Positions 20,129 to 21,943 of a DNA stretch of 32,369 nt are shown here, piece after piece. A program made the translations under genes and the position numbers. The stretch comes from Burkholderiaceae bacterium (GTDB lineage: Bacteria; Pseudomonadota; Gammaproteobacteria; Burkholderiales; Burkholderiaceae_C), in NCBI GenBank assembly GCA_019751915.1, contig JAIEMS010000036.1, positions 1 to 32,369 on the forward strand. Reading direction: 5' to 3'. The stretch's first letter is position 1. The number at the start of each line of letters is the position of its first letter. The notes under the pieces are model-generated. The model did no database searches and was not told the origin of the DNA. It worked only from the letters and a program-made list of their open reading frames with translations.

Positions 20129-20929
20129 ATGTCGCCCCCACCCAAGCTCACCGCCCGACAGCAGCAAATCCTTGATTTGATTCAGACCGCCCTAACGAAC
20201 AACGGTGCGCCACCGACCCGGGCCGAGATTGCCGCCCAACTGGGCTTTAAATCGGCCAATGCCGCCGAGGAGCACCTGCAAGCGCTAGCGCGCAAAGGGG
20301 TGATTGAGCTGGTCAGCGGCACCTCGCGCGGCATCCGCCTGTGCGCCCCAACCGTGCGCGCCCTCAACGCCGAACGCGGTGTGCCACTGGGTTTGCCGAT
20401 GGTCAGCATGGCACAACGCATGCTGCCCCTGATTGGTCGGGTGGCCGCCGGTGCACCGATTTTGGCGCAAGAACACATAGAGCAAACTTATTGCATCGAC
20501 AGCGGCTTGTTTGCACAAGAGGCCGATTATTTGCTCAAGGTACGCGGCATGTCGATGCGCGACGTGGGCATCATGGATGGCGATTTGCTGGCCGTGCAAA
20601 CGGGCCACGAAGCCCACAACGGACAAATCATTGTGGCCCGACTGGGCGATGAAGTCACCGTCAAGCGCCTGCACCGCACCACCCACAGCATTGAGCTGCG
20701 ACCAGAAAACCCCGATTACCCCACCATCACAGTCAAACCCGGCCAAGCCTTCGCTATCGAAGGCCTTGCGGTAGGGCTGATTCGGTGCAATATGTTCAGC
20801 CCAGTGCGGCCAAGGCACAATGCGAACTATGTTTCAATCCACGCCTCTCAAGAGGCGACTTTGGAAGAGGTTGGGCCTCCCCTAAAACGATTCTATTCCC
20901 CTGAAGGGGATGTTTCAAACCGAAGTTAG
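20129..20929 (+). CDS. lexA: LexA repressor with an unusual C-terminal extension
   Basis: The SOS repressor and autoprotease. The winged-helix DNA-binding domain is at residues 7-70 ([34 protein letters not shown]). The self-cleavage site is Ala107-Gly108 in GRVAAGAP. The catalytic dyad is Ser142 (RGMSMRD) and Lys179 (EVTVKRL). The family ends a few residues after [12 protein letters not shown], at about 224 residues; here the conserved part ends at Arg219 and 47 more residues follow. That tail uses codons rare in this genome (AGG, CTA, CGA, AGT) and spans a CRISPR-like repeat and a hairpin, so the native last codons and stop seem to have been replaced. The core is intact and probably functional. 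A LexA box lies upstream. Confidence 0.93.
20831..20859 (-). CRISPR. Solitary type I-C-like CRISPR repeat
   Basis: The plus strand begins GTTTCAATCCACGCC and ends GGCGAC, identical to the ends of the usual 32-nt type I-C repeat read in reverse. The middle folds as CGCCTC, TCAA, GAGGCG. This copy is 29 nt, about 3 nt shorter in the loop. In canonical orientation (ending GATTGAAAC) it lies on the minus strand. Only one copy was found, no cas gene is in the window, and it is inside the 3' end of lexA, so it is a remnant or an isolated element, not an array. Confidence 0.5.
20897..20920. repeat. Second hairpin with a repeat-like GTTTCAAAC flank
   Basis: TCCCCT, GA, AGGGGA forms a short perfect inverted repeat at 20897-20910, then T and GTTTCAAAC (20912-20920). 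The 10 bases GTTTCAAACC differ by one base from the start of the CRISPR-like repeat (GTTTCAATCC) 81 bp upstream. It may be another decayed repeat of a different type, or chance. Confidence 0.3.
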
Positions 20930-20935
20930 TTTTAG

Positions 20936-21943
20936 ATGAATATTGTGATCCTCGATGACTATCAGGATGCTGTGCGTAAGCTCCCTTGCGCCACCCGCCT
21001 CGAACCCTACAACGCCAAAGTCTTTACCAATACGGTCAAGGGGCTGGGCCAGCTGTCTGTGCGACTCAAAGATGCTGACATCATCGTGTTGGTACGCGAG
21101 CGCACACAAATCACCCGCCAACTGGTCGAAAAACTGCCCCGCCTGCGCTTGATTGCCCAAACCGGCAAAATCGGTAGCCACATCGACGTTGCTGCCTGCA
21201 CCGAAAACGGCATTGCCGTGGCCGAAGGTGCCGCTTCGCCAGTGGCCCCCGCAGAATTGACTTGGGCTTTGGTTATGGCCGCCATGCGGCGCTTGCCACA
21301 GTACATTGCCAACCTCAAGCACGGCGCATGGCAACAGTCGGGACTCAAGTCGGCTTCCATGCCACCTAACTTCGGCATTGGCAGCACCTTGCGCGGCAAA
21401 ATATTGGGCATTTGGGGGTACGGGCAAGTCGGCCAAATTGTGGCCCAGTATGGGCGCTCCTTTGGTATGGATGTTCGCATCTGGGGGCGCACAGCGTCAC
21501 GGGCCCAAGCACTGGCCGATGGTTTTAAGGCAGCCCATACCCGCGAAGAATTTTTTACCCAGTGTGATGTGATCTCGCTGCATTTGCAGCTCACTGACGA
21601 AACCCGGGCCAGCATCACCCACGAAGATTTGGCCCGCATGAAGCCAACGTCGCTGTTGGTCAATACCTCACGCGCTGAAATTATCGAACCCGATGCCTTG
21701 ATTGCCGGGCTGAACCGTGGTCACCCCGGAATGGCTGCAATTGATGTGTTTGAAAGCGAGCCTATTTTGCAAGGCCATGCCCTGCTGCGGCTAGAAAACT
21801 GCATCTGTACGCCGCACATTGGCTATGTTGAGCAAGACAGCTACGAACAGTCTTTCAGCGCCGCCTTTGACAATGTGATCCATTACATCAAGGGTACACC
21901 CAAGAACATTATCAATCCGGGGACGCTGCAGATGCGCCGGTAG
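20936..21943 (+). CDS. D-2-hydroxyacid dehydrogenase family protein
   Basis: A 335-residue NAD(P)-dependent oxidoreductase of the D-isomer 2-hydroxyacid dehydrogenase family (phosphoglycerate, glyoxylate and hydroxypyruvate types). The Rossmann motif is WGYGQVG (glycines 161, 163, 166). The catalytic residues fit Arg246 (NTSRAEII), Glu275 (VFESEP) and His294 (TPHIGY). The N-terminal substrate domain reads LIAQTGKIGSHIDVAAC, as in SerA-like members. There is no ACT domain, so it is not the longer SerA. The substrate is not clear from the sequence. The ATG is 6 bp after the lexA stop and no Shine-Dalgarno is evident, because the upstream bases belong to the unusual lexA tail. Its 3' end overlaps the convergent gene by 32 bp. 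Confidence 0.85.
   Translation: MNIVILDDYQDAVRKLPCATRLEPYNAKVFTNTVKGLGQLSVRLKDADIIVLVRERTQITRQLVEKLPRLRLIAQTGKIGSHIDVAACTENGIAVAEGAASPVAPAELTWALVMAAMRRLPQYIANLKHGAWQQSGLKSASMPPNFGIGSTLRGKILGIWGYGQVGQIVAQYGRSFGMDVRIWGRTASRAQALADGFKAAHTREEFFTQCDVISLHLQLTDETRASITHEDLARMKPTSLLVNTSRAEIIEPDALIAGLNRGHPGMAAIDVFESEPILQGHALLRLENCICTPHIGYVEQDSYEQSFSAAFDNVIHYIKGTPKNIINPGTLQMRR

Follow-up and report, generated by a model that had tools for sequence, protein, structure and literature searches.

A CRISPR-like repeat in the 3' end of lexA as the probable left end of a dispersed, start-codon-landing repeat

A 29-nucleotide sequence that resembles a type I-C CRISPR repeat, GTTTCAATCCACGCCTCTCAAGAGGCGAC, lies at positions 20831-20859 on the plus strand of the window (the whole stretch of 32,369 nucleotides from a Burkholderiaceae bacterium that was analysed here), within the open reading frame of lexA. 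An earlier note on this DNA had taken it for a lone repeat, which could be the relic of an array, a mini-array or an inserted single unit, and the locus raises the question of what such a sequence is doing at the end of a repressor gene. The answer proposed here is that the 29-mer is most likely the left end of a mobile, non-autonomous repeat that lands at start codons, a member of a non-Neisseria branch of what appears to be the REP2/CREN family, and that this copy forms the 5' leader of the gene behind lexA.

The locus behind lexA and the copies in its genome

The position of the 29-mer inside the lexA frame (20129-20929, plus strand) is as the note had described it. This frame encodes 266 amino acids with LexA domains by Pfam, its native stop has been lost, and the sequence that now closes it belongs to a dispersed element of 107 nt (20829-20935, plus strand) that reaches as far as the next gene's ATG. 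That gene, a D-isomer-specific 2-hydroxyacid dehydrogenase gene (20936-21943, plus strand), lies immediately 3' of the element and begins with the target ATGAA (20936-20940, plus strand). The CRISPR-like left end (29 nt, 20831-20859, with the CRISPR sense on the minus strand) includes hairpin 1 (20842-20857), whose arms at 20842-20847 and 20852-20857 enclose the loop TCAA. It is followed by the hairpin 2 region (20860-20886, with an inner stem pairing about 20867-20870 with 20876-20879) and by hairpin 3 (20897-20910, TCCCC-TGAA-GGGGA), all three being drawn from folds and covariation; the outer stem of hairpin 2 is degraded in the window copy, and hairpin 2 is kept in Neisseria copies. Further right are the palindrome GTTTCAAAC (20912-20920), kept in most aligned copies, the tetranucleotide GAAG (20922-20925, plus strand), a weak form of a GGAG Shine-Dalgarno-like motif located 10 nt 5' of the ATG, and the TAG (20927-20929, plus strand) that is the present stop of the lexA frame. 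A comparison of the window with Rfam gave no match at gathering score.

Comparison with relatives, which the note had recommended, indicates that the segment is not ordinary lexA coding sequence. The reading frame of the window's lexA crosses the upstream region of the dehydrogenase gene, enters the element and stops at 20927-20929; over 20770-20929 it adds ~43 residues past the usual end, the final ~33 of them encoded by the element. The lexA genes of relatives end differently, with one shared C-terminus (once as a GIAVG variant) or with ...NTMLN and a stop in seven of the eight loci given, the eighth (L158) giving none, and are separated from the dehydrogenase gene by several hundred nucleotides with a possible small ORF, a gap that is missing in the window. 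The suggestion that the segment had been inserted is borne out, as the site before the dehydrogenase gene is empty in all 12 relatives examined; the gene starts with ATGAA in 11 of these and with GTCAAT in the twelfth. In one such relative (L163) the sequence ...caaggcacaatggcggg is joined directly to ATGAACATCG, and in the window ...caaggcacaatgcgaact is followed by the element and then by ATGAATATTG; the ATG at the left junction could belong to the element or represent a 3-nt duplication. The insertion in the window separates the ATG of the dehydrogenase gene from its upstream region.

The repeat is not alone. In the window's genome (G000; 2.72 Mb in 55 contigs) the 15-mer GTTTCAATCCACGCC occurs eight times on eight contigs, the reversed control not at all, and all eight occurrences open copies of one dispersed element, ~75-115 nt long. 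BLAST with a 112-nt query (window 20829-20940, E up to 10) returned 54 matches from this genome, comprising 17 repeats of a CRISPR array, 29 element loci outside the array (L010-L038, full or partial, all at E 1.1e-5 or better) and eight weaker or second pieces. The mean column identity in the alignment of the 19 near-complete copies is 77%. Right ends were counted by hand at 27 loci, two with a left end only (L030 and L038) being set aside: 19 keep ATGAA, with a frame open for 50 codons in 17 of these, and eight are without it. Copies in this genome mostly carry the weaker GAAG or AAG as their Shine-Dalgarno-like motif.

Target sites, structure and spread

Empty sites are found at other genes as well. 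Among the loci examined in the genus, plain sequence stands right before ATGAA at proS in 20 of 20 relatives, at argF in seven of seven, at a fourth gene in three of three and at a fifth in the one relative examined, where the upstream flank is also identical (tgggcatttcaggaaagtctaagattgtata); at these genes and at the dehydrogenase gene, five in all, the copies of the window's genome hold the element exactly at the empty-site position. Like the window copy, most copies lie directly 5' of start codons, and the genes downstream of different copies are unrelated to each other. Thirty-five of 55 ATGAA copies (those tested out of 58, three being dropped as duplicates or cut off) lead into an ORF of at least 80 codons, compared with 196 of 596 control sites, which are ATGAA occurrences elsewhere in these loci (Fisher p 1.2e-5). 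The remaining 20 of the 55 open no such ORF, and ATGAA as such therefore seems to be the target, start codons presumably being favoured through the survival of copies.

The consensus consists of a left end ATGTTTCAATCCAC, hairpin 1, hairpin 2 (TTTGGAAGAGG...CCTCTCCCAAA), hairpin 3 (CCCCCTGAAGGGGG), the palindrome GGTTTCAAACC and a right part that reads GGAGTT...TTTTNG before ATGAA. The ends are shared: of 63 distinct copies, 50 begin with ATG, GTTTCAATCCAC is present at the left end in 47, GGAG and GAAG occur within the last 20 nt in 41 and 10 respectively, and 58 have ATGAA at the right end. However, a search pattern for the right end supplied 41 of the 63, out of 47 stretches, and right-end counts outside the window's genome are biased because the pattern demanded that end. 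As to an in-frame reading of the element into the next gene, the distance is a multiple of three in 37 of the 63, but copies of one lineage have lengths in common. Some copies (L121, L126 and L152) have a longer hairpin 1, for example CCCAAGCACAGCTTGAGCGA, which is even closer to long CRISPR repeats, and such left ends are also listed in G031, G033 and G035. Five others (L115, L150, L139, L151 and L120) are broken by insertions of ~118-159 nt, which in L115 and L150 sit at the identical point of hairpin 3 and apparently represent another repeat.

The paired structure is conserved. In 61 of the 63 copies, all but L107 and L123, a hand-set structure, which like the alignment we chose ourselves from the sequences scored, leaves 88.3% of cells paired; shifting it by one to three columns lowers this to 44.9-57.4%. 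Two-sided changes affect 13 of the 22 pairs of the structure (mean of 7.8 in shuffled alignments, none of 500 reaching 13; 7-11 when slid), the covariation score is 0.181 against 0.108 in shuffled alignments of the 61 copies, and further pair types number 33 against 28.6, a value that 10 of the 500 shuffles reach. Covariation is seen in hairpin 1 across the 61 copies. When the first alignment, of 19 copies, was folded automatically to a consensus, only five pairs resulted. As single RNA the window copy is not unusual (z -1.36, with 28 of 200 shuffles folding equally well or better); two other copies read on the same strand reach z -3.82 and -4.13, and DNA folds of single copies range from z -2.20 to -4.31, with L044 at -1.77. 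On the plus strand the stems contain 93 A-C cells against 49 G-T cells, an excess that would favour the minus (CRISPR-sense) strand as the folded one, which is only a hint as the cells are not independent.

Within the genus, matches occur in five of 26 genomes: that of the window, G001 (one), G004 (two), G015 (seven) and G022 (four). The right-end pattern, applied to one genome per species, returned 47 stretches, 46 of them betaproteobacterial by title and one titled Pseudomonadota, from such taxa as Giesbergeria, Azoarcus, Azonexus, Rhodoferax, Polaromonas, Sulfuricella and Accumulibacter. A covariance model search over 399 genomes of the order, in which ~9 candidates per genome were scored, found matches in at least seven, a lower bound because the model gave nine matches in the window's genome, where BLAST gave 29 loci. 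Another carrier (G028) has 36 left-end matches, none of them closely spaced among the matches listed. Shorter, distant relatives of 85-88 nt that end in the motif TTTAAACCAGCAAG and GATAAA, not ATGAA, were seen at L189, L190, L192 and L194, possibly another branch.

A related repeat in Neisseria

Two of the genomes found by the covariance model share one genus, which we infer from N. gonorrhoeae records to be Neisseria, and their copies read ATGTTTCAACACACAGGGC... and have a different hairpin 1. After hairpin 1 these copies continue with a very similar hairpin 2, with GGTTTCAACC and, in the best copies, with TTAAGGAAATTTTGATGAA. The homology is clear: aligned with the consensus, the Neisseria version scores 71, and the maximum in 500 shuffles was 19.5. 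Of the 46 genomes in its genus 20 carry it, with at least 18 matches in six of these. Two N. gonorrhoeae records hold it at 23 and 22 places, and one copy stands directly 5' of a gene beginning MKWVTVVLSFALVCCQYS, which we take to be ftsB. Near-complete Neisseria copies are ~127-156 nt long, and many end in AAGGA, which resembles a ribosome-binding site and lies 6-7 nt before the ATG (by eye), and ATGAA.

Passages of two papers describe CREN as a 150-bp element 5' of nhba in some meningococcal strains with reference to the REP2 paper, and implicate it in the cell-contact induction of downstream genes (PMC9031163, PMC5079597), and a REP2 repeat is placed upstream of pilC1 in a passage of another (PMC3898611). 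Like these, the Neisseria version is a short intergenic repeat with around twenty copies in several genomes, found directly 5' of genes; the agreement of position, size, copy number and genus argues strongly, short of proof, that it is REP2/CREN. The window element differs from it in hairpin 1, whose CACACAGGGC stem in Neisseria is not CRISPR-like, and the window copy has a weaker Shine-Dalgarno-like motif (GAAG) and is 107 nt long, as compared with ~150 bp for REP2/CREN. The branch to which the window copy belongs lies outside Neisseria, whereas CREN is termed specific for pathogenic Neisseria in a passage of PMC5079597; among the papers listed by a literature search, judged by title and abstract opening and with subscription literature mostly outside it, none described the element outside Neisseria. 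What appears to be new is thus the sister branch outside Neisseria, the Neisseria kind of repeat being already known.

The CRISPR likeness, its rival explanations and mobility

The resemblance to a type I-C repeat is genuine, and the search for arrays and cas genes that the note had proposed found both elsewhere in the same genome. A type I-C array of 17 identical 32-nt repeats, GTTTCAATCCACGCGCCCACAAGAGGCGCGAC, lies at G000:C23:6052-7158 (L040), upstream of a cas3-like ORF, and near it, at G000:C23:1041-2798, is cas8c (Csd1), which scores above the curated cut-off; from their size and order the ORFs around cas8c may be read as cas7, cas5 and cas3, and the sole Cas1 match of the genome is on another contig (G000:C15:66851-67732). 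The note's remark that no cas gene lies nearby holds as far as cas8c, the one cas gene searched for in the window, which was not found in it. Among the five carriers in the genus, the other four have no detectable cas8c (G015 among them having a completeness of only 64%), and all four have type I-F Cas1. Some Cas1 was found in 15 of the 18 carriers searched, and none in G029, G033 and G039, which were searched via loci of unstated completeness. Arrays of 36-37-nt repeats of the form GTTTCAATCCACGCCC...GCGA were seen in three element carriers (L127:4508-5091, L176, L177 and L178), with a Cas1 gene near those of L176, L177 and L178.

It is extremely improbable that a true type I-C CRISPR repeat, whether array relic, mini-array or single insert, makes up the left end. 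This reading has in its favour that the element and the resident array share GTTTCAATCCACGC, CAAGAGGCG and a GCGAC-type end, with GTTTCAATCCACGC...GCGAC set in a hairpin in type I-C repeats and element alike, and that in the window's genome, alone among five, the resident array outscored the others against the element. The element end is nevertheless 3 nt shorter than the array repeat (29 against 32 nt) and has a different stem-loop; it is single, no copy forming an array of two or more repeats with spacers, and no second repeat adjoins it; some 80 conserved nucleotides follow it in full-length copies; and in each of five genomes whose arrays share the motif, the array repeat differs from the element end, which was taken once per genome. 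The true unit is the dispersed element of 107 nt, whose right end is fixed and which contains three hairpins; in Neisseria, hairpin 1 takes a form that is not CRISPR-like. The ~80 conserved nucleotides largely refute the relic, mini-array and single-unit readings of the note, and the eight exact 15-mers and the 29 loci tell against a lone or relic repeat. Nor did the element look like the leader and repeat of a local array, there being no evident resemblance past the last repeat in G000, G034, G038, G030 and G029 (by eye, with a word search in G000). The terminal ATGTTTCAA is common to the Neisseria version, and part of the CRISPR match is therefore simply the element's end; the TCCACGCCC that follows it may reflect coincidence, repeat capture or selection. 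It is unlikely that recombination at the GTTTCAA end, which element and CRISPR repeat have in common, led to capture of the CRISPR-like end. In favour of capture, TCCACGCCC follows ATGTTTCAA only in the non-Neisseria branch, the longer stem (CCCAAGCACAGCTTGAGCGA) of some copies recalls longer repeats, and CAAGAGGCG is common to element and array in the window's genome; against it, no copy among the matches listed is identical to its resident array repeat, and a genome's own array scores best in one genome of the five only.

A solitary repeat unit acting as an RNA anti-CRISPR (Racr), or one that sequesters Cas5 or Cas6, would likewise present one CRISPR-like repeat outside an array, and the retention of the hairpin and of GTGGATTGAAAC in many copies (GTTTCAATCCAC being present at 47 of 63 left ends) and the frequency of Cas1 among the carriers would suit it. 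In published solitary repeats the host subtype is matched in 83%, according to a passage of PMC10651486, whereas the four other carriers in the genus lack detectable cas8c and have type I-F Cas1; the window's own genome does have a type I-C system. The element is furthermore chromosomal, multi-copy and part of a larger conserved unit, and carriage by phages or plasmids, a trait of solitary repeat units, was not seen: no record of the phage collection matches it, viral contigs, scanned for the Neisseria right end only, gave nothing, and the only two matches in the plasmid collection are N. gonorrhoeae records of ~2.17 Mb that are labelled plasmids and are chromosome-sized. We consider this function highly improbable. 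It is very unlikely, too, that the left end is a functional mimic of a CRISPR repeat, captured or selected, by which Cas5c would bind or cut ~30 gene leaders or antisense transcripts in type I-C carriers. A cis-regulatory RNA leader, riboswitch-like or contact-regulated and kept for gene control in place of a mobile repeat, would fit a covarying structure directly 5' of genes and the link of Neisseria CREN to contact induction in passages of PMC5079597 and PMC9031163; as the downstream genes are unrelated, orthologous sites are empty in relatives, some ATGAA copies have no long frame and the window has no Rfam match at gathering score, it is an improbable explanation, although a regulatory leader and a mobile repeat are compatible with each other. 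As an observation the CRISPR reading holds in part, and as an explanation it mostly fails; the likeness is probably a property of hairpin 1 in the non-Neisseria branch and not a CRISPR function.

The preferred reading, a mobile repeat, would have a small element with no genes of its own moved by an enzyme from elsewhere and inserted directly 5' of ATGAA, and insertion at that position would account for surviving copies lying mostly at start codons. The gene would retain its ATG and the element would become a 5' leader of ~107 nt with three hairpins. In most copies outside the window's genome a Shine-Dalgarno-like GGAG or AAGGA stands 6-10 nt 5' of the ATG, the GGAG at a spacing of 10 nt, and might keep the gene translated, in which case the survival of copies before proS and argF would be accounted for; by analogy with what is reported for CREN in Neisseria, the element might also regulate the gene. 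The IS200/IS605 layout comprises terminal hairpins, no long inverted repeats, no target duplication and a fixed sequence beside one end. The element resembles non-autonomous derivatives of this group (PATE/REP type) in its hairpins near both ends and the lack of a clear target duplication; it also shows no obvious terminal inverted repeats, and its subterminal hairpins and fixed neighbour ATGAA/TTCAT suggest, by analogy, single-strand transposition of the IS200/IS605 kind. It differs from them in that no matching transposase or autonomous copy was found and in showing no correlation with Y1 transposases, which are found in 22 of the 26 genus genomes, mostly without the element, and did not turn up in G456 and G464 (the latter 83% complete), both Neisseria genomes rich in copies. 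As candidate partners, ten Y1 loci were rejected, since neither end beat the best of 20 shuffles at any of them (L063 and L174 equalled it). Mobility driven by Cas1 was rejected also, although the Cas1 matches in 15 of 18 carriers had seemed to point to it: the weak matches in six carriers proved to be type I-F Cas1 (six of six tested, with a neighbouring Cas3f tested in one). The lack of a Cas1 match in three carriers is not decisive, since they were searched via loci of unstated completeness. No mobilising enzyme was found among these candidates.

Many Betaproteobacteria other than Neisseria appear to carry a sister family of a repeat that has been described from that genus. Should the CRISPR-mimic reading be true, it would tie a start-codon-landing mobile repeat to CRISPR machinery. 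Counts of solitary CRISPR repeats call for caution, as dozens of dispersed CRISPR-like units stem here from one mobile repeat. The clean empty sites reveal an element whose insertion point is precisely the start codon and which comes to separate a gene, even a core gene such as proS or argF, from its promoter region, and raise the questions of how a mobile element can sit at a start codon without killing the gene and whether its targets gain shared control.
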